Source of the DNA: Candidatus Nitrosopumilus sp.
GTDB lineage: Archaea > Thermoproteota > Nitrososphaeria > Nitrososphaerales > Nitrosopumilaceae
Length of the DNA: 36,522 nt
Direction: 5' to 3'
Assembly: GCA_024644105.1 (NCBI GenBank)
Contig: JAHELP010000008.1
Location: 1-36,522, forward strand
The notes beneath the pieces are model-generated. The model was not told the DNA's origin. It did no database searches and saw nothing but the letters and a program-made list of their open reading frames with translations. Shown piece after piece: positions 12,271-30,338 of this stretch; the first letter of the stretch is position 1, and every line of letters begins with the position of its first letter. The position numbers were made by a program, and so were the translations under genes.

Positions 12271-12954
12271 ATGTCAGATGTACTACTTGTACAGAATACA
12301 CGAATTGAAAGTTCTGGCTATCTAGGTGAACTCTTAGAAAAAGATGGATTCCAAATCACAACTGTAAATGCAAAACATGAAAAGTTACCAAGCAAAGATT
12401 TTTCACTAGTAGTAATTTTGGGAGCACCTGAAAGTGCAAATGATGATTTACCTTATCTTCAAGCAGAACAACAATTAATCAAAAATTCTGTTGAAAAAAA
12501 CATTCCTGTACTTGGAATTTGTTTGGGTTCTCAACTAATAGCAAAAACATTTGGTGCTAAAGTGTATGGTGGACCAAGAAAAGAAATAGGATTTTATCAT
12601 GATTTGAAAATTAATAATGCTTCTCCACTTTTCAAGGGATTCAAAAACCCATTTACTGTATTTCATTGGCATGGTGATACATTTGATTTACCAAAAGGTG
12701 CTATCCGATTAGCCTCATCTGAGCATTATTCTAATCAAGCATTTCAATATCAGACTGCTGTTGGATTGCAATTTCATCTAGAGGTAAATGAGGATATGGT
12801 AAATCTTTGGCTTGATAATACTGAAGAAAAACTAAAAGAAATTCCATATATCGTTCCACAACAAATTCGCTCAGATATTATTGAAAATATTTCAATAGTG
12901 AAATCAAATATGAATAATTTTTACAATAATTTCAAATCTTCATTCGACCTTTGA
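12271..12954 (+). CDS. Class I glutamine amidotransferase (GMP synthase glutaminase-like)
   Basis: PVLGICLGSQLIAKTFGAKVYGG nucleophile elbow; FHWHGDTF; GLQFHLEV. Confidence 0.9.
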   Translation: MSDVLLVQNTRIESSGYLGELLEKDGFQITTVNAKHEKLPSKDFSLVVILGAPESANDDLPYLQAEQQLIKNSVEKNIPVLGICLGSQLIAKTFGAKVYGGPRKEIGFYHDLKINNASPLFKGFKNPFTVFHWHGDTFDLPKGAIRLASSEHYSNQAFQYQTAVGLQFHLEVNEDMVNLWLDNTEEKLKEIPYIVPQQIRSDIIENISIVKSNMNNFYNNFKSSFDL

Positions 12955-20043: not shown

Positions 20044-21081
20044 TTACATCTTGGGATCAAGGCCTTTTGCTAATCTTAATGCATCAACAAGACCATCTGC
20101 ATATCCAATACTCAAAATTGCAACTTCATCTTGACCATCTTCGAGAAATTTTTCAGCATCTTTAACATACAACTCCGCATTTTCTAAAATTCCTTGGAAT
20201 TCTTTTTGCCCTTTGTATAGTGGAATTACCTCCTCAAGTGCCTCTCTGACCATGGGGACATATTTTTTCATCATTTGGATGGAAATTTTTTTTGTTTTTT
20301 CAGTATTATCATACGGTTCATCAATACACTGACCGAATATTTTCAAAGCATCTGTCTCTGTAAAATGTAATCTACCTGGAATGATGACTGTATGTGGAGG
20401 CTTGCCAAAATCTATTTTCTTTAAACTCGATATTTTACCTGAAATAATGCTTTGATCTTTGAATCCTATTCTAGAAGCTACAATTACATATGTTGCTGAA
20501 CTTATTACATTTCTAATTTGGCCTTTTTCAGTTTCTAATAATCCATTTAACGCATCCTTAGGATCTAAGAAAAAATCTTTGTCTTGATTATATTCTAAAA
20601 GAAGTACTGTGTGATTACCTTCGATGATATTTTTATAAATTACATAATATGGTGTTGTTAATGATTTCATTTCACTCATTATAGTTGCAATTCTTCCAAC
20701 TTTGTAAAAATGTAAACCACATTCTCCAATCATTGAAGTCAGTGATGATGAAGCATGAATAGAATGTGTTTTGATATTTTCTTCAATTGCTCTTGTTCTT
20801 AATTCAATGTGAGTTGTTGCAATGTAAGGATCCCCATATGCTAGTAATACCACTTTCTTTTTCTTTGCATTTTTTAATATCTCACTACCATCTTCAACCA
20901 ACCATCTTTTTGCAAGTTTAAATTCTCCTTTCGTGGCTTTTTTGATTTTTGTCAAATCTGATTTTCCAATAGGACTTGTAAATTGTTCTAAATACACAAT
21001 ATCTGCTTTTGATAAAATCTCTAGTGCTTCATTTGGAATCGACTTGAATCCAGAAATTCCTAAACCTATGAACCAGAGCAT
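20044..21081 (-). CDS. dphB: Diphthine synthase
   Basis: MLWFIGLGISGFKSIPNEALEILSKADIVYLEQFTSP and YGDPYIATTHIELR, typical Dph5/DphB. Confidence 0.95.
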   Translation of the reverse strand: MLWFIGLGISGFKSIPNEALEILSKADIVYLEQFTSPIGKSDLTKIKKATKGEFKLAKRWLVEDGSEILKNAKKKKVVLLAYGDPYIATTHIELRTRAIEENIKTHSIHASSSLTSMIGECGLHFYKVGRIATIMSEMKSLTTPYYVIYKNIIEGNHTVLLLEYNQDKDFFLDPKDALNGLLETEKGQIRNVISSATYVIVASRIGFKDQSIISGKISSLKKIDFGKPPHTVIIPGRLHFTETDALKIFGQCIDEPYDNTEKTKKISIQMMKKYVPMVREALEEVIPLYKGQKEFQGILENAELYVKDAEKFLEDGQDEVAILSIGYADGLVDALRLAKGLDPKM

Positions 21082-22208
21082 TATTGCATCTTTTTATCGT
21101 GAAGTCTTTTTAAATGCTGTAGAGATTTCTTGATGATTTCTATCCCTCTAAGATATTCATCTACAGAAACTTTCTCATCAATTGTATGAGCTTCATGAGG
21201 ATCCCCTGGCCCATATGTAATAACTGGTATTCCCCACTGATTTCCAAGAACATTCATGTCTCCTGTGCCTGTTTTTCTGATCAAAGTTGGCCTTGAATGC
21301 TCAGTTTCCATAATTCCAAGTGTAAATGCTCTAACTAAAGGAGAATTGTGAGGGGCTTCAAAAGGCTCTGTTTCATCTAAAATTGAATAAAATGCTTCCA
21401 CTCCTCTTTCTTGTGCAATCTCTTTTACTAGATTTGCAATTTTTTGCTCAATAGTTTTACAATCCATGTCAACAGGAATTCTAATATCAAATGTTGTCTC
21501 ACAATCCTTTGGAGTTACATTATGACTTGTTCCCCCTTTAACTTCTGTCATAGTTGCAGTCAATAGCATTCCTTTAGATCTGTCCTCTTGATTTGCTTCT
21601 AGTTTCTCTTTTAGTTCTCTTGCAAAGATCATTGATTCTAGAATTGCATTTTTTGACAACCATGGAGCACTAGCATGTGAGCTATCTTCAACACTAATTT
21701 TTAGATTTATTGCTAGTCTTCCTTTGTATGCAATTGTAACCTGTTTAATTCCACTTGGTTCTCCAAATACAGCATAATCTATTCCCATTTTTTTCTTAAC
21801 AAGATTTTTAATTCCAGTTGCGTTTCCTTCTTCGTCGACTGCTCCTACAAAAATTACTGTTCCGTTATTATTTTGAATTGATGCTGCTGCAAATAACATT
21901 GCCATTAATGGTGCTTTAGCATCTGATGCACCTCTACCATACAATGAATCTCCTTCTTTTCTAACTTTTACTTTACCTGGAACTACATCCATATGCCCAC
22001 ACAACATTATTTTTGGAGAACCAGATCCTTTTTTTGCAATTACATTTCCCACTTCATCAATTTGAATATCTTCAAATCCTAAATCGTCGCATTTATCTGC
22101 CAAAAATTCTGCCATTGGTTTTTCACTGAGTGATGGAGTGTATAGTCGAAGAGCTTTCTCTAGCATCTTTACTGCAAATCTTGGTGTTACTGTAAAATGA
22201 GTGTCCAA
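21081..22208 (-). CDS. lysK: [LysW]-lysine/[LysW]-ornithine hydrolase (M20 peptidase family)
   Basis: MLCGHMDVVPG, GRGASDAKAPLMAM, VDEEGNATG; adjacent to LysX and LysW. Confidence 0.9.
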   Translation of the reverse strand: MDTHFTVTPRFAVKMLEKALRLYTPSLSEKPMAEFLADKCDDLGFEDIQIDEVGNVIAKKGSGSPKIMLCGHMDVVPGKVKVRKEGDSLYGRGASDAKAPLMAMLFAAASIQNNNGTVIFVGAVDEEGNATGIKNLVKKKMGIDYAVFGEPSGIKQVTIAYKGRLAINLKISVEDSSHASAPWLSKNAILESMIFARELKEKLEANQEDRSKGMLLTATMTEVKGGTSHNVTPKDCETTFDIRIPVDMDCKTIEQKIANLVKEIAQERGVEAFYSILDETEPFEAPHNSPLVRAFTLGIMETEHSRPTLIRKTGTGDMNVLGNQWGIPVITYGPGDPHEAHTIDEKVSVDEYLRGIEIIKKSLQHLKRLHDKKMQ

Positions 22209-22211
22209 TTC

Positions 22212-23054
22212 TTACTTTTCTATCTTCAGTGCATAGTCTAGCATTAAGGAAGGAATATCTACATCGCACACTCTAACAGTATTTTTGTATTCTGTAGTAT
22301 TGTTCACTTCATGTACAACTAGTCCTTTCTCATCACTTTCCATCAAATCTACACCTACGATATCTCCTTCAATTGCATGTTTTGCCTTAATACACATTTC
22401 TTCCATTTCTTGCGTAACTGGACATGGTTCGGCTGTTCCTCCAAGTGCCATGTTAGTCTTCCAATGTTTGGATGATCTGTAAATAGCCGCAACTATTTTG
22501 TCTCCAACCATAATTGCTCTAATGTCCCTTGGTGGTCTTTTCACAAATTCTTCTAAATAATGAACTTGATAAATTGGATACATGTTTTCTCTACTTTCAA
22601 TAATTCCTTCAGCTGCATCTCTATCATTTAATTTTGAAATTAATCTTCCCCAACTACCGACTGTTGGTTTGATAACTTTTGGATATCCTTGATTATCTAA
22701 TGCTTCCAAAGCTGCTTCTTTAGAAAAAGCTACTGTTGCATCTGGTGTAGGAACTCCAAATTTTTTCAATAACATATGTGTGAATAATTTATTTCCTGCA
22801 AAGACACCTGTATTGAGACAATTAATCACTTTGACTCCAATCCCTTCAAGTGCTGCAGTAGAATGTAGATTTCTGTAGTAACTAACACATCTTTGAATAA
22901 CTACTCCATAATCTTCTGGTTTCTTTTCTAAATTAATTGCTAATTTCTTACAATCAACCATCTGAATGTTTATGTTCTTTTTTTTACCTGCTTCTAACAG
23001 AGCTTTTTCTTCCCAACGGATGGTATCGTAAAGAATGGTAACGTCAGGATTCAC
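22212..23054 (-). CDS. lysX: LysX-type ATP-grasp ligase (alpha-aminoadipate-LysW ligase)
   Basis: ATP-grasp motifs VIKPTVGSWGRLISK, FVKRPPRDIRAIMVG, VVHEVNNTTEYKNTV. GTG start at 23054 overlaps the LysW stop (GTGA); the track uses a TTG at 23063. Confidence 0.9.
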   Translation of the reverse strand: MNPDVTILYDTIRWEEKALLEAGKKKNINIQMVDCKKLAINLEKKPEDYGVVIQRCVSYYRNLHSTAALEGIGVKVINCLNTGVFAGNKLFTHMLLKKFGVPTPDATVAFSKEAALEALDNQGYPKVIKPTVGSWGRLISKLNDRDAAEGIIESRENMYPIYQVHYLEEFVKRPPRDIRAIMVGDKIVAAIYRSSKHWKTNMALGGTAEPCPVTQEMEEMCIKAKHAIEGDIVGVDLMESDEKGLVVHEVNNTTEYKNTVRVCDVDIPSLMLDYALKIEK

Positions 23055-23218
23055 TGTCCCCAATCCTCGCCAACCGTTTGGGCAGGCTTTAGATCGAAAC
23101 CGTTTGAACCTTTTGCTAATTCAAAACTTGCGCCACATTCCGGACATGTTACGATTTCTCCCTCAAGTGCATCACTTGGTATGGAAATATCTGCATCACA
23201 TTCTTCACATTTTGACAT
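23051..23218 (-). CDS. lysW: LysW-family amino-group carrier protein, paralog with C-terminal Gln (…VGEDWGQ)
   Basis: 55-aa ORF MSKCEECDADISIPSDALEGEIVTCPECGASFELAKGSNGFDLKPAQTVGEDWGQ*; two CxxC zinc knuckles; between homocitrate synthase and LysX. Not in the ORF track. Confidence 0.93.
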   Translation of the reverse strand: MSKCEECDADISIPSDALEGEIVTCPECGASFELAKGSNGFDLKPAQTVGEDWGQ

Positions 23219-23240: not shown

Positions 23241-24407
23241 TTATTTATCATTAATTATCTTTTTTTCAAGTCTGTCTTCTAGAGGGATCTCAATTAGATC
23301 ACCCATTCTAAGACCCTTTAATCCTGCAGCAACAGCTTTTGCTCCTTCATCATCTTTTTCCAAACCTAACAATGACATCAAATATGCTGCCCCTGTTTTT
23401 CCTGCTAGTTCGCCAAATACTATCCTTCTTCTATTTCCAACTGCTCTGGGAGGAATTGGTTCATAGGCTGCAGGATTTTTGAGAATTGCTGCAAGGTGTG
23501 TTCCTGCTTTGTGTTTGTATGCTGATGATCCTACAATTGGCTTTGAATCATATGGTTTGATTGATGTGTATTCTTCAATTAATCTGGACAAATCAAGTAA
23601 CATATCTAATCTGAAATCATTTGGTGATTTGTAAAGATAAGTCAATGCTACTGCAACCTCTGCTAGTGGTGGAATTCCTGTTCTTTCTCCAATACCGTCA
23701 ATTGTAGTGTGAATTTGATCTACTCCTGCATCACATGCGGAAAAGGCATTTGCTACTGCAAAACCAATATCATTATGTACATGAGCATCAAGTGGAACAT
23801 CTACAACCTCTCTGACTTTTTTCACAAAATTATGCATTCCGATTGGACGTAAAATTCCAACTGTATCTGGAAGACTAATTCTATCTACCCCTGCTTCTTC
23901 AATAGCCTTACAAACTTTTAGTAAAAATTCTGGTTCTGCTCTACTTCCATCCTCAACTGTGAATCTAATTTTTAGTCCATGAGATTTTGCATATTCTACT
24001 GTTTCTACTGCTCTTTCAAGAGCCTCTTCTCTTGTAATTCGTAATTTATCTTTTAGATGAATATCTGAAATTCCTAAATAAGCTGCACACCATTTTGCAT
24101 CACAATCTAATGAAATATCTATGTCTCCCTTGAGTGCACGTCCATGAGAAACAATATCTGCCTTTAGTCCTTGTTTAATTATTGTTTTAGTTGCTTCTTT
24201 ATGATCATTTGAAACAACAGGTGAAATTTCAATTTGATCAACTCCAAAATAATCTAGCATCCATGCAATCTGGATTCTTTGTTTGTTGGTAAACGAAACA
24301 CCTGGATGTTGTTCACCCTCTCTTAGAGTACTATCTAGTATTCTAATTTTCTTTGGGTTTTTGTCATATGCGTTGTATAGGTTTGCATAGTGATTCGGAT
24401 CTTTCAT
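23241..24407 (-). CDS. Homocitrate synthase-like enzyme of the isopropylmalate/homocitrate synthase family
   Basis: ILDSTLREGEQHPGVSF, HVHNDIGFAVANA, GIGERTGIPPLAEV. ATG at 24407 (MKDPNHYANLYN) preferred over 24425 because a TATA-like box lies at 24434-24441. Confidence 0.85.
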   Translation of the reverse strand: MKDPNHYANLYNAYDKNPKKIRILDSTLREGEQHPGVSFTNKQRIQIAWMLDYFGVDQIEISPVVSNDHKEATKTIIKQGLKADIVSHGRALKGDIDISLDCDAKWCAAYLGISDIHLKDKLRITREEALERAVETVEYAKSHGLKIRFTVEDGSRAEPEFLLKVCKAIEEAGVDRISLPDTVGILRPIGMHNFVKKVREVVDVPLDAHVHNDIGFAVANAFSACDAGVDQIHTTIDGIGERTGIPPLAEVAVALTYLYKSPNDFRLDMLLDLSRLIEEYTSIKPYDSKPIVGSSAYKHKAGTHLAAILKNPAAYEPIPPRAVGNRRRIVFGELAGKTGAAYLMSLLGLEKDDEGAKAVAAGLKGLRMGDLIEIPLEDRLEKKIINDK

Positions 24408-24444
24408 TACTGAAATCGTTACCATATATTGATGATATAAACAT

Positions 24445-24524: not shown

Positions 24525-24944
24525 TTAGATTATTTTTCTCAAAATAATTACAGTATTCGTATCTATGACACCTGGAATTTTTCTTAATGCATCAATACTA
24601 TTGTTAATCTCTGCAATACTTGTTGCACTCATAATTGTTGTAATGTCATATTGACCTGTAATTTCATAAACTGTTTTTACTCCTTCAAGTTTTGCAAGTT
24701 TTAGAGATACTTTGGATGTGTCAGTTGCAGAATCTACTGAAACTAAAACAATTGCACTGGTAGTATTTTCTTCGCCTAACTCCAATGTGAATTTTTTAAT
24801 AGTACCACTATCTACTAGGTTTTTTACCCGTCTTCTAACTGCAGATTCTGATAGTTTTAATTTTTTACCAATGTCTACAAAGGATTCTCTAGAATCTTCT
24901 TTTAGGTATCCTATGATTTTCTCGTCTACTTTATCCTTGTACAT
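24525..24944 (-). CDS. Lrp/AsnC-family regulator (LysM-like)
   Basis: VDEKIIGYLKEDSRESFVDIGKKLKLSESAVRRRVKNLVDSGTI HTH plus RAM-type domain; embedded in the lysine/arginine cluster. Confidence 0.92.
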   Translation of the reverse strand: MYKDKVDEKIIGYLKEDSRESFVDIGKKLKLSESAVRRRVKNLVDSGTIKKFTLELGEENTTSAIVLVSVDSATDTSKVSLKLAKLEGVKTVYEITGQYDITTIMSATSIAEINNSIDALRKIPGVIDTNTVIILRKII

Positions 24945-26118
24945 TTCTTTTTTCTTCCTCTTCAGTTAGTACAGAATCAAGAGCATGTAAAACTTTTGTT
25001 ACATCATCTTCAGATATTACTAGTGGAGGAAGAATTCTTAGAATATTTCTTCCCGAATACAGCATTAGTACTCCTTTTTTTATTAATCCCATTAAGATAT
25101 CTCTGACTTCAAATTTCATCTCAATACCTATCATGAGACCTTTTCCTCGTACCTCTCTAATCATAGAATGATTTTCTTTTAGTTTTTCTAATCCCTCTCT
25201 GAATAACTTTCCCATCTTTTCTGAATTTTCAATTAATCCATCTTCTGTTATTGCTTTAAGAGCTGCAGTACCTGCTGCACATGATATTGGATTTCCTCCA
25301 AATGTTGATGAATGTTCTCCTTTATTGATTGATGCTAGGATATCTGGTCTAACAAGAGTTGCCCCCATTGGTACTCCTCCTGCTATTCCTTTTGCAAGAC
25401 ATAAGATGTCTGGTGAAGTATTCCAATGATCACAAGCCCATAATCGTCCAGTTCTACCTAAACCAGCTTGTATTTCGTCAAAAATTAACACAATTCCTTT
25501 TTCGTCACATAGTTTTCTAACTTCTTGTAAAAATCCTTCAGGAGCAACAATAATTCCACTTTCACCTTGAATAGGTTCTAAAATTACAAAGGCAGTATCA
25601 TCATCAATCACTGAACGTAATGATTCTATATCTCCATAAGATGCAAAAGAAACTTTCTCTACTAGTGGTGCAAATGCTTTTCTATATTTTGGATTAAATG
25701 TTAATGATAAAGCACCAAATGATTTTCCATGATAAGATCCTTTCATTGCAACCATTCCTTTTTTACCTGTAAATTTTCTTGCAAACTTCATGGCAGCTTC
25801 AATGGCTTCAGCACCACTATTGTTAAGATGAACTTGTGTTAGGCCTTTAGGAGCTAACCCAATCAATGTTGTCAAAAATTCTTCTCTTGTTTTATTGTAA
25901 AGAGAACTATGAACTGTAATGATCTTATCGATTTGTTCTCTTATTGCATCATTGACTCTTTGATTTTTATGACCTACTAGTGCTACACCGTATCCTCCCA
26001 TACAATCAATGTATTCTTTACCTTCGATATCCCATACATGGGATCCTACGCCCTTTTCAATTGTAACTGGAAATCTTTGATACAGATTTCCCATAAATTG
26101 GTCTTCACTCATGTTCAA
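24931..26118 (-). CDS. lysJ: [LysW]-aminoadipate/glutamate semialdehyde aminotransferase (class III)
   Basis: GVALVGHKN, NSGAEAIEAAMKFARKFTGKKG, LIFDEIQAGLGRTGRLWACDH, LAKGIAGGVPMGA. Confidence 0.92.
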   Translation of the reverse strand: MNMSEDQFMGNLYQRFPVTIEKGVGSHVWDIEGKEYIDCMGGYGVALVGHKNQRVNDAIREQIDKIITVHSSLYNKTREEFLTTLIGLAPKGLTQVHLNNSGAEAIEAAMKFARKFTGKKGMVAMKGSYHGKSFGALSLTFNPKYRKAFAPLVEKVSFASYGDIESLRSVIDDDTAFVILEPIQGESGIIVAPEGFLQEVRKLCDEKGIVLIFDEIQAGLGRTGRLWACDHWNTSPDILCLAKGIAGGVPMGATLVRPDILASINKGEHSSTFGGNPISCAAGTAALKAITEDGLIENSEKMGKLFREGLEKLKENHSMIREVRGKGLMIGIEMKFEVRDILMGLIKKGVLMLYSGRNILRILPPLVISEDDVTKVLHALDSVLTEEEEKRNVQG

Positions 26119-26908
26119 TCACCGTACAATTATCATGAGCAATAGCTGCTGAAATTGGATTTTCTCTTTGTCCATTACCAATTAGTGCTTCTTTAACACC
26201 CATATCTAATGCTTCAGTTGATGCCAAAATTTTTTTCTCCATACCTGGTCCAATTTTTGGTCTTATCTCTTTAGCTTCTGCTAATGTAAGTTTTGGAACT
26301 AGTTTGTCATCCATTAACAATCCATCAACATTTGTGATGAATAATACTTTATCACATCCAACTTTACCTGCTACATATGCAGCAGCCCTGTCTCCATCTA
26401 TGTTGAGAAATTCTGATTCTTCACTAATCGCAATTGGTGAAATTACAGGCGTAAGGCCTTGCTCTAAAAGTGATTTGATGAATTTTGAATTTACTTCTTT
26501 AATTTTTCCAGTATATCCACCATCAATTGCTTGTTTTCTACCTTTTTCATTGACTATGAGTAATTTCTTTTTCCTGTCTGCTTCTATGACTTTTGCATCA
26601 ACTCCTGAGAGACCAATTGCATTAATTCCATTTTTTTGAAGCATTTGTACGATTGTTTTGTTAATTCTACCAGACATTACCATGGTAAAAATCTCTGCAG
26701 TTTCTTTATCTGTATATCTGCTTTTGATTCCACTTGGTGAAGTTACAAATTTTGGTTCTTTTCCAAGTTGTTCACACACTTTGGTAACTTCTTTTCCACC
26801 TCCATGAACAATTATGATCCCTTCAGTTTCTGCTACTTTTTTAATATCTAAAATTGTAGATGGATGTAAATCATCAACTACACTTCCACCAATTTTGATT
26901 GTAATCAT
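26105..26908 (-). CDS. lysZ: [LysW]-aminoadipate/glutamate kinase (ArgB family)
   Basis: IKIGGSVVDD, IIVHGGGKEVTKVCEQLG, NIDGDRAAAYVAGKVGCDKVLFITNVDGL. Confidence 0.92.
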   Translation of the reverse strand: MITIKIGGSVVDDLHPSTILDIKKVAETEGIIIVHGGGKEVTKVCEQLGKEPKFVTSPSGIKSRYTDKETAEIFTMVMSGRINKTIVQMLQKNGINAIGLSGVDAKVIEADRKKKLLIVNEKGRKQAIDGGYTGKIKEVNSKFIKSLLEQGLTPVISPIAISEESEFLNIDGDRAAAYVAGKVGCDKVLFITNVDGLLMDDKLVPKLTLAEAKEIRPKIGPGMEKKILASTEALDMGVKEALIGNGQRENPISAAIAHDNCTVIEHE

Positions 26909-26910
26909 TT

Positions 26911-27957
26911 CTAAACAGGTGTTAAAGGAGTATATCTTAGTCCATCCATTTCATCAAAACCAGACATGACATTCATGTTTTGAATGGCAGAACCTGCTGC
27001 ACCTTTCATCAAATTATCTGATGCAGACAATGCAATCAATCTGTTGTTATCTTCATCTAAATCAAATCCAATATCACAAAAGTTTGAACCAACTAAGAAT
27101 TTTGGATCTGGGAATTTATACAATCCCTTTTTATCTCTGATTAATCTTACAAATCTTTCTTCGCCATAAGCTTGACGATATAATTTCCATAATTCTTTTT
27201 CCTCAATATCCTTTTTCAAGAATGTATGGTTTGTACATAGGATTCCACGAACTACATCTACTGCATGTGGACTCATTGAAACACGAATTTTATGTCCTGC
27301 AATTTCACTTAACTCTTGTTCAATTTCACCAGTGTGTCTATGCTTTGCTGGTTTGTATGGTCTAATTACACCTGCTCTCATTGCATGTGCAGTTCCAGAA
27401 CCAGAACCTGCACCTGAAGAACCAATTTTAGAATCAACTACAATATGTTCTGTATCAATAATGTCATTTCTAATTAATGGCGCAAGAGCTAGCATTGATG
27501 TTACTGCCATACATCCTGGGCAAGAAACTAGTTGTGCATTTTTAATTTTATCCCTATGTAATTCTGGTACTCCGAAAACTGATTTTTCTAAATAATCTGG
27601 ATGTGGATGTTCCCAACCATACCATTTGTCATATGCATCTTGATTGTGTAATCTATAATCTGCACTCAAATCAATTACTTTGACTCCTCTATCATAGAGT
27701 GCTTTTACAATTTCAGTAGCTGTACCATGTGGAACAGCAGTGAAAACTAAATCACACTTGTCAGTTAATTTATCATAGTCTAATTCTGAAAAAGTAAGAT
27801 CGGTAAATCCCTTCAAACTAGGTTGAACCCTGTGAAGATATTCTCCTACGTGTTGTCTTGATGTGACCATTGCGATCTCTACTTTTGGATGGTTTACTAG
27901 AAGACGAAGAGTTTCTCCACCTACATATCCTGATGCTCCAACAACTCCTACTTTCAT
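26911..27957 (-). CDS. lysY: [LysW]-aminoadipyl/glutamyl phosphate reductase (ArgC family)
   Basis: VGVVGASGYVGGETLRLLVNHP, VSCPGCMAVTSMLALAPL, KIGSSGAGSG. Confidence 0.93.
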   Translation of the reverse strand: MKVGVVGASGYVGGETLRLLVNHPKVEIAMVTSRQHVGEYLHRVQPSLKGFTDLTFSELDYDKLTDKCDLVFTAVPHGTATEIVKALYDRGVKVIDLSADYRLHNQDAYDKWYGWEHPHPDYLEKSVFGVPELHRDKIKNAQLVSCPGCMAVTSMLALAPLIRNDIIDTEHIVVDSKIGSSGAGSGSGTAHAMRAGVIRPYKPAKHRHTGEIEQELSEIAGHKIRVSMSPHAVDVVRGILCTNHTFLKKDIEEKELWKLYRQAYGEERFVRLIRDKKGLYKFPDPKFLVGSNFCDIGFDLDEDNNRLIALSASDNLMKGAAGSAIQNMNVMSGFDEMDGLRYTPLTPV

Positions 27958-27985: not shown

Positions 27986-28843
27986 TTATTTTCTTACGTA
28001 GTTTAGAGCATATTCTACCATTTCTTTTGGTATATTTCGTTGTGCAACTCTTGCTAGACCTTTGAATTCTACAGTATTATTGACTTCGTGTACTACTAAT
28101 CCTCGCTCATCATCTTCCATCATATCAATTCCTAAAATTCCGCCCCCCATGGCTTTTGATGCTTTTACAGCCATATCTTCCATCTCTTTTGTGATCTCAC
28201 AAAGTTCAGGATCTGCACCTAATGCGATATTTGTTTTAAAACCTCCTGAGGATTTTCTATACATTGCAGCAATTGGCTCATCACCTACTGTGATTACTCT
28301 AATGTCTCTTGGTGGTCTTTTGATTAATTCTTGTAAATAGTATATTCTGTCATGTGGACTATCTGTAATTTCTCTAATTTCAAAAACTGCTTCCATGGTA
28401 TCTTTATCTTTGAGTGGCATTACTCCTCTTCCCCAACTTCCTATTACTGGTTTTATTACCAAGGGAAACCCAACTTTTTCTAAATTCTCTGCTGCACTTT
28501 GACTTGAAAATGAAAAATATGTTTTAGGTGTTGGGATATTATTTTTTTTCAAAAGTAATGTCATGAACATTTTATTTCCACAAATATTTGCAACCTCAAA
28601 TTTGTTTAATACCGGAATATCTAAAAATTCCAAACTAGCTGTAAAATGCAGTCCTCTAAAATAACTAACACATCTTTCTAAAACAACATCTCCTAAATCA
28701 AAATCCTCTTTTTTGCTGTCTGTGTTGATTTGAGTGATTTTGGCATCTAACATCAATGCATCGTGTCCTAATTCAGATGCTTCTTTTTGAAGCATCTTTT
28801 CTTCCGCTCTTAGGCGGTCAAAAACGATACAAACTTTTGACAT
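27986..28843 (-). CDS. argX: ArgX/LysX-type ATP-grasp ligase (probable glutamate-LysW ligase)
   Basis: VIKPVIGSWGRGVMP, LIKRPPRDIRVITVG, VVHEVNNTVEFKGLARV; start codon overlaps the LysW stop; next to argG. Confidence 0.85.
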   Translation of the reverse strand: MSKVCIVFDRLRAEEKMLQKEASELGHDALMLDAKITQINTDSKKEDFDLGDVVLERCVSYFRGLHFTASLEFLDIPVLNKFEVANICGNKMFMTLLLKKNNIPTPKTYFSFSSQSAAENLEKVGFPLVIKPVIGSWGRGVMPLKDKDTMEAVFEIREITDSPHDRIYYLQELIKRPPRDIRVITVGDEPIAAMYRKSSGGFKTNIALGADPELCEITKEMEDMAVKASKAMGGGILGIDMMEDDERGLVVHEVNNTVEFKGLARVAQRNIPKEMVEYALNYVRK

Positions 28844-29010
28844 TACTCTCCCCAGTCTTCGCCTACGGTTTCTGCTTGTTTAAGCTCAACATTTGATCCG
28901 TCTTTTTTTGCGATTTCAAAGTCAGCGCCACAATCAGGACAGGAGACAATTTCTCCTACTGAGGCATCGTCTGGGATGTTTAGTGTTGCATCACATTCTG
29001 GGCAGTTCAT
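28843..29010 (-). CDS. lysW: LysW amino-group carrier protein with canonical C-terminal Glu (…VGEDWGE)
   Basis: 55-aa ORF MNCPECDATLNIPDDASVGEIVSCPDCGADFEIAKKDGSNVELKQAETVGEDWGE*; overlaps the argG stop (ATGA). Not in the ORF track. Confidence 0.95.
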   Translation of the reverse strand: MNCPECDATLNIPDDASVGEIVSCPDCGADFEIAKKDGSNVELKQAETVGEDWGE

Positions 29011-30206
29011 GTTTTTGTTGACCTTTTCTTTTGTAATTTATTAGCTTCTGTTGACTGCATTCCCCATAATTCTACAAATCCTTTGGCCATTCTTTGATCA
29101 AATGTTGATTCTACACCATATGTTGCAATATCATGACTGTACAATGAATTACTAGACTTTCTTCCAACAACTCTGAGACTACCTTTGTACAGTTTTAGTT
29201 TCACTGTACCTGAGACTGGTTTTTGTGATGCTTCAATAAATCCATCTAGGTCTGTTTTTAATGGATCTTGCCAAAGTCCTGAATATACCAAATATGACCA
29301 TTCATCATCAATTATTGATTTGAATTTATTTTCATGTTTAGTGTGCACCATTTTTTCTAAATCTGTATGAGCTTCAATTAAGCAAGTTGCTGCTGGGGTT
29401 TCATACACTTCACGAGATTTTATTCCGACAACCCTATCTTCAATATGATCCACTATTCCTACTCCGGCATTGCCAGCTTTCTTGTTGATATATTCAACTA
29501 ATTTTACAGGTTCCATTGTTTTACCATCTACTCCAACTGGAATTCCTTTATTGAATTTGATTTCCAAGTATGTTGGTTTATCTGGCAAATTTTTTGTTTT
29601 AACCCAAATGAATGCATCATCTGGTGGTTCATTATATGGATCTTCTAACACACCGCCTTCAATTGCACGTCCCCAAAGATTTTGATCAATACTAAATTTT
29701 TTTGCAACAGTATCAATTTCAATTCCATGTTTTTTTGCAAATTTTAATTCTGTATCTCTATCCAAATTTTTATCTCGTATAGGAGCTATAATTGGAAGAT
29801 CTGAACCAGAACGTAATGTAATATCGAATCTTACTTGATCATTTCCTTTCCCAGAACAACCATGTGCCAGTGATGTTACTTTTTCTTTTTTTGCTATTTC
29901 TAAAACTTTTTCTGCAATTAATGGTCTAGCAAGTGCTGTAGCAAGACAATATTTTTTTTGATAAAGTGCATTTGCTTTTATTGAAGGAAAAATGTAATCT
30001 TTGACAAATTCTTTTCTAGCATCAATATTGTAATGTTTTTTTACACCAAGTTTTTTTGCTTTTGCAGCAATTTTTTTCCAATCATCTCCTTGGCCTACAT
30101 CTACAGTTACTGTGATGACATCCATATCGTGTTCGTCTTGTAGATATTTTACAACAACAGATGTGTCGAGTCCACCTGAAAATGCAAGAATTCCTTTTTG
30201 AGTCAT
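29007..30206 (-). CDS. argG: Argininosuccinate synthase
   Basis: KGILAFSGGLDTSVVVKYLQ, AHGCSGKGNDQVRFD; ATG at 30206 (MTQKGILAF) preferred to the track's 30257. Confidence 0.96.
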   Translation of the reverse strand: MTQKGILAFSGGLDTSVVVKYLQDEHDMDVITVTVDVGQGDDWKKIAAKAKKLGVKKHYNIDARKEFVKDYIFPSIKANALYQKKYCLATALARPLIAEKVLEIAKKEKVTSLAHGCSGKGNDQVRFDITLRSGSDLPIIAPIRDKNLDRDTELKFAKKHGIEIDTVAKKFSIDQNLWGRAIEGGVLEDPYNEPPDDAFIWVKTKNLPDKPTYLEIKFNKGIPVGVDGKTMEPVKLVEYINKKAGNAGVGIVDHIEDRVVGIKSREVYETPAATCLIEAHTDLEKMVHTKHENKFKSIIDDEWSYLVYSGLWQDPLKTDLDGFIEASQKPVSGTVKLKLYKGSLRVVGRKSSNSLYSHDIATYGVESTFDQRMAKGFVELWGMQSTEANKLQKKRSTKT

Positions 30207-30338
30207 AAAACATCTTTTCCGTCGTATTTTCGAATTTATCTTTTGTGATAGGCTCAAATTAAATTATTTTTAAAAAATTTCTGACTAGCTTGAGCTAAAA
30301 TTCGATGATTATTTAACCGCCAAATATAACGCTGTTTT

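Follow-up and report, generated by a model that had tools for sequence, protein, structure and literature searches.

Ammonia-oxidising archaea that abound in the sea and in soil encode Gln at the end of the small carrier protein on whose terminal Glu the textbook LysW-dependent synthesis of lysine and arginine depends, and some of their genomes hold no other copy. The gene discussed here, lysW-Q, lies in a 36,522-nucleotide stretch of DNA from Candidatus Nitrosopumilus sp. (contig JAHELP010000008.1, the whole of which we call the window), and its 55-residue product, MSKCEECDADISIPSDALEGEIVTCPECGASFELAKGSNGFDLKPAQTVGEDWGQ (minus strand, 23051-23218), is, judged by its sequence, a LysW carrier variant with Gln encoded at the attachment residue. 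The pathway itself is known; the novelty lies in the residue encoded at the attachment point and in the maturation that this residue implies. We consider it probable that deamidation after translation turns the terminal Gln into Glu and, more tentatively and at somewhat less than an even chance, that LysK is the enzyme responsible, which by analogy with the Pup system would make LysW-Q a self-maturing pro-carrier.

The identity of the gene is straightforward. lysW-Q scores above the cut-offs of both the Pfam LysW zinc-ribbon and the LysW/ArgW profile (Table 1), and the narrower TIGR01206 (cut-off 53.2) is failed by both LysW paralogues of the window, at 30.8 and 40.0 bits. The translation contains the motifs CEEC and CPEC, that is, four zinc-binding cysteines, and the 3' end reads GAT-TGG-GGA-CAG-TGA (EDWGQ), with the TGA stop at 23051-23053, instead of the C-terminal EDWGE with its attachment Glu that is the mark of a LysW. 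The initial annotation had read these letters correctly, both in the Gln codon and in the retained zinc knuckles and VGEDWG tail, and its placement of the gene between a homocitrate synthase-like gene and LysX is borne out by the reading frames and profiles. A DNA search of the window genome found two LysW copies only, lysW-Q and lysW-E.

Table 1. Features of the window in and around the lysW-Q cluster.
Feature	Positions	Strand	Evidence
lysW-Q, LysW carrier, 55 aa, VGEDWGQ end	23051..23218	(-)	ORF; PF21344 46.7 bits, cut-off 27; NF041070 88.9 bits, cut-off 75
CAG (Gln) terminal codon replacing GAR (Glu)	23054..23056	(-)	sequence; kept in 140/151 family genomes
lysX (LysX_arch), ATP-grasp ligase	22212..23054	(-)	TIGR02144 330 bits; GSWGR motif kept
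lysK, M20 metallohydrolase freeing Lys/Orn from LysW; proposed lysW-Q deamidase	21081..22208	(-)	TIGR01902 280 bits, cut-off 163
homocitrate/isopropylmalate synthase family gene	23241..24425	(-)	TIGR02146 377 bits, under equivalog cut-off 413.6
LysM-type Lrp/AsnC regulator	24525..24944	(-)	NF040947 189.8 bits, cut-off 180
lysJ/argD aminotransferase	24931..26118	(-)	TIGR00707 433 bits
lysZ/argB [LysW]-aminoadipate/glutamate kinase	26105..26908	(-)	NF010662 302 bits, cut-off 194
lysY/argC reductase	26911..27957	(-)	TIGR01850 415 bits
argX, second ligase of the LysX family, assigned to the arginine side by its neighbours	27986..28843	(-)	TIGR02144 297 bits
lysW-E (ArgW), second carrier, VGEDWGE end	28843..29010	(-)	ORF; NF041070 93.4 bits
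argG-like gene, upstream of lysW-E	29007..30257	(-)	ORF; named from own sequence

Downstream of lysW-Q follow lysX and then lysK, the sole LysK-type gene in the window genome at the TIGR01902 cut-off. The synthase gene on the other side would, with its presumed substrate, provide the first step of the aminoadipate route, and the lysJ/argD, lysZ/argB and lysY/argC genes are presumably common to the lysine and arginine branches. The GTG start of lysX overlaps the lysW-Q stop (CA-GTG-A), an arrangement seen in most of the family, and in genus g5 the sequence CAATGA gives an ATG start; to judge from this layout, the stop-start overlap likely couples the translation of the two genes. The idea that the overlap itself forces Q is rejected, because GAGTGA provides the same GTG start and is found in a clade that reverted to E. 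Elsewhere in the window, a gene with a class-I glutamine amidotransferase domain lies at 12271-12954 near a glutamate dehydrogenase gene, and a eukaryotic-type DNA topoisomerase IB gene lies at 437-2104 (PF01028, 246 bits).

The Gln codon is anything but a local peculiarity. The EDWGQ-stop pattern is found in 140 of the 151 sampled genomes that were assigned to Nitrosopumilaceae by named relatives, a reversed control pattern having zero matches, and in 96/98 when only good genomes of the family (at least 90% complete, at most 5% contaminated) are taken. Similarly, when relatives such as Nitrosopumilus and Nitrosarchaeum were picked by similarity and not by tail, 75 of 79 ended in Q and four in E, so the relatives do not all end in E, as the initial annotation had considered they might. 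Also, Q-ended LysW is present in many single-contig genomes. The assembly behind the window is a draft of 95 contigs, and a mistake of sequencing or assembly in the terminal codon was one of the options first listed, yet with Q in 140 family genomes, and in so many single-contig ones, the probability of such an error is negligible.

The initial annotation had also proposed to tabulate the last residue by neighbourhood, and in the window it is indeed the lysine copy that carries Q; a general tie of Q to the lysine branch is rejected, since in other genera the arginine copy, or both copies, carry it. Within family f11, both copies as Q, the arginine copy alone as Q and the lysine copy alone as Q all occur, and across the genomes examined the lysine/arginine tails Q/E, E/Q, Q/Q and E/E all exist. 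Outside f11, Q is found in families f10, f27, f28, f33, f51 and f54 of the phylum (in f27 by pattern match alone), and in G162-G167, genomes of family f19 in the same class, the E/Q pattern matched no LysW tail; these genomes may be without the pathway or have a different LysW tail. A few genomes show apparent third LysW tails (G018:C37:34368; G224:C45:381 and C52:55844; G198:C34:94), which are possibly extra copies or contig-end duplicates.

Furthermore, the alternation is confined to two residues. Among 304 LysW tails read from fetched loci, a count in which some genomes appear twice and most loci were picked by the E/Q pattern, 206 end in Q and 98 in E. When the last codon was left unconstrained in 76 genomes, every LysW among the matches listed ended in one of these two residues. 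Six further stop-ended matches, inspected as candidates for a LysW with another last residue, turned out to be unrelated reading frames; the tails read after a profile search of 23 genomes that made no use of the tail were again all E or Q. Neither Lys (AAG, one transition from Glu) nor a stop (TAG, one transition from Gln) was seen at the last codon among the tails read. The LysW copies found in Thermoproteota end in E or Q only.

Whether a Q-ended carrier works is best asked of genomes that encode nothing else. By profile, the single-contig genomes G299 and G300 hold two LysW each, all WGQ, and G308 holds two by pattern, both WGQ, each of the three with two LysX; in single-contig G284, G285 and G286 the profile finds one LysW each, WGQ, again with two LysX. 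The first three are probably Nitrososphaera evergladensis, N. gargensis and N. viennensis, and G284-G286 probably belong to Nitrosocosmicus. In other families, draft G341 and single-contig G348 likewise combine one WGQ LysW with two LysX, and the single carrier of G341 is surrounded by argH, lysK, lysJ, lysX, lysZ, lysY and a second lysX. DapB, of the diaminopimelate route, was absent from all 17 genomes searched, WGQ-only ones included, and was detected in 11 positive controls. Genomes with only WGQ, with two LysX-type ligases and without DapB therefore argue that WGQ is a working carrier, and a non-carrier role for it is, from gene content, close to excluded. The initial annotation had offered such a role as an option, in which LysW-Q would be a regulator or decoy and the WGE paralogue would carry all cargo; the window genome does retain a WGE copy, and in Sulfolobus a single LysW can supply both branches (Ouchi 2013, as cited), but the WGQ-only genomes have no WGE paralogue to fall back on, and the medium of Nitrososphaera viennensis lists salts, ammonium and vitamins and not amino acids (PMC4129164), an argument that holds if G308 is that species, so that we regard the option as very unlikely indeed.

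Two observations on copy number belong here. A single LysW, WGQ and adjoining LysX, is found in G282, G284-G286 and G291 (loci L191, L195, L190, L193 and L201), and in G284-G286 the arginine-side LysW seems to have been lost, in which case one carrier would supply both branches. In G023 (C1:1774750-1775589) the lysine-side LysX lies within an 825-aa open frame, possibly a gene fusion, and the lysine-side LysW is missing, the WGE copy alone being left.

The mechanism that we favour would reconcile a working carrier with the classical chemistry. LysW-Q would be made as a pro-carrier, a genuine amino-group carrier whose C-terminal Gln is deamidated once, post-translationally, to Glu, after which LysX and ArgX would load aminoadipate or glutamate onto the gamma-carboxyl in the classical style. 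An ATP-grasp carboxylate ligase cannot activate the side chain of Gln, but deamidation turns Gln into Glu. After the first hydrolysis the carrier would cycle as WGE, so that gene-encoded E and Q would yield the same working protein, which would explain why the swaps are free and reversible whichever paralogue is concerned, and why neither LysX nor the shared downstream enzymes have to change; and given that, among coded residues, only Glu or a deamidated Gln provides a terminal gamma-carboxyl, the exclusivity of E and Q would be explained as well. The side chain matters in at least one archaeon, since the E54A change in ArgW of the haloarchaeon Natrinema gari J7-2 abolishes arginine synthesis and leads to auxotrophy (PMC10433800).

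The likeliest deamidase would be LysK, the pathway's own product-releasing isopeptidase, which cuts the gamma-amide that links lysine or ornithine to the terminal Glu of LysW, a bond of which the Gln side-chain amide would be the smallest version. Its candidate M20 metal ligands are invariant (e.g. H73, D75, D97, E127, E128 and H342, their roles being presumed from the M20 family), and a single Phe/Tyr site alone separates the E- from the Q-partnered group of LysK proteins. LysK was present in 21/21 genomes searched, which does not discriminate in favour of a deamidase role, because it is needed in every LysW genome. Against LysK, its natural substrate provides side-chain contacts that NH3 lacks, and we know of no LysK that hydrolyses a primary amide. 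The precedent comes from Pup, which many species encode with Glu and others with Gln: Dop acts both as the deamidase of PupGln and as the enzyme that takes Pup off again, two reactions called "chemically equivalent" (PMC8223512, PMC12288473), and the Pup ligase PafA is unable to deamidate PupGln (PMC12288473), an analogy that favours LysK over LysX as the deamidase. The initial annotation had suggested a deamidation of this kind, and it is the best-supported of its options; the Dop-like enzyme did not materialise, for a Dop/PafA homologue (PF03136) was found in 0/12 genomes searched with a positive Corynebacterium control, in agreement with the absence of such a gene noted in the window, and LysK would in principle suffice.

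Deamidation could equally be the work of a separate, unlinked amidase or glutaminase, to which all of the evidence for deamidation applies just as well; genomes hold many amidases, and the class-I glutamine amidotransferase gene of the window is a possible, if unsupported, candidate. However, no dedicated deamidase was evident among the genes examined that adjoin Q-only carriers, the Q clusters examined held no evident candidate next to their carriers, and several lineages gained Q independently, each of which would have needed the enzyme beforehand; we hold this form of the deamidation reading to be rather unlikely.

The history of the switches bears on the remaining chemistries. In a phylogeny of 193 LysX proteins, which has the minor flaw of taking in a few pre-start columns that overlap lysW, the E/Q state of the partner changed at least eight times, four of these changes being forced by well-supported branches, and the switches affect both lysine and arginine copies; a within-family tree, trimmed of these columns, has one clear reversal to E (GAG) uniting five Nitrosopumilus genomes. 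Q is old as well as recurrent, and most of Nitrosopumilaceae has retained it. Among translated columns, no LysX position separates the five E-partnered from the 102 Q-partnered Nitrosopumilaceae proteins, the single separating column being the lysW codon read in the lysX frame ahead of its start. Likewise, in 1199 column-residue tests for a co-switching residue, of low power with four well-supported independent pairs, no translated column tracked all switches, and the best was the codon before the lysX start, i.e. the last codon of lysW in another frame. The tail-recognition motif GSWGR is kept in 105/106 Q-partnered LysX. In 107 Nitrosopumilaceae rows, the first base of the last codon changed once, as against 16 changes (four of them purine/pyrimidine) at a neighbouring fourfold site; Q may be favoured in this family for a reason outside the deamidation model, the counts being too small to reject neutrality between E and Q.

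The main rival to deamidation, which the initial annotation raised together with other altered chemistry, is that LysX makes an ordinary peptide bond between the amino acid and the terminal alpha-carboxyl of the carrier. Gln keeps a free alpha-carboxyl, LysX scores 282 bits against the RimK-type "alpha-L-glutamate ligase" family TIGR00768, and some relatives make alpha-linked products; because the family is named for such products, the idea retains a small probability, and it is distinctly unlikely as it fits worse in several respects. One kinase, one reductase, one aminotransferase and LysK would have to handle gamma-linked WGE cargo and alpha-linked WGQ cargo in one cell, LysX has no consistent residue change at the partner switches, residues besides E and Q would be expected if the alpha-carboxyl alone mattered, and the haloarchaeal E54A result speaks against it. 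Alternatively, the Gln amide might be consumed by LysX itself, through phosphorolysis of the amide in reverse or an NH3-releasing transamidation, with the gamma-acyl group handed on to the incoming amino acid, which would call for no extra enzyme and give the usual gamma-linked product. To our knowledge, ATP-grasp ligases do not consume a Gln amide, and the inability of PafA to deamidate PupGln, together with the lack of a within-family LysX position that separates Q from E partners, makes this highly improbable.

Set beside known systems, lysW-Q resembles the LysW proteins of Thermus, Sulfolobus and Thermococcus and the ArgW of Natrinema in its length, paired CxxC zinc knuckles and VGEDWG tail, and likewise lies beside a GSWGR-bearing LysX and shares the downstream enzymes, whereas the described members end in Glu and use its gamma-carboxyl (PMC10433800), and lysW-Q encodes Gln. 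LysX shares its ATP-grasp family (TIGR00768) with RimK, CofF and MptN, and although these are named as alpha-L-glutamate ligases, LysX reportedly acts on the LysW gamma-carboxyl. In the open-access literature searched, neither EDWGQ nor LysW paired with "C-terminal glutamine" was found, and a metabolic model of Nitrosopumilus maritimus fills in the LysW pathways, the passages found being silent on the tail (PMC6038301). Either a maturation step in central metabolism has been overlooked, or the carrier chemistry here is unlike the model.

The closest parallel is Pup and Dop of mycobacteria, where a small protein also ends in E or Q according to species, the gamma-carboxyl of Glu is the point of Pup attachment and the bond-breaking Dop also deamidates. 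The parallel with LysK is a proposal about how the enzymes work and not about descent: Pup and LysW share no homology, LysW being a zinc ribbon, Dop and PafA are missing from the 12 genomes searched, and the cargo is a metabolite in place of a target protein. The resemblance in the E/Q alternation suggests a rule by which Gln is tolerated in the gene wherever an isopeptidase recycles a gamma-glutamyl carrier, and deamidation by LysK, if true, would be a second and evolutionarily independent instance of the Pup/Dop logic, carried out by a non-homologous enzyme in abundant archaea.
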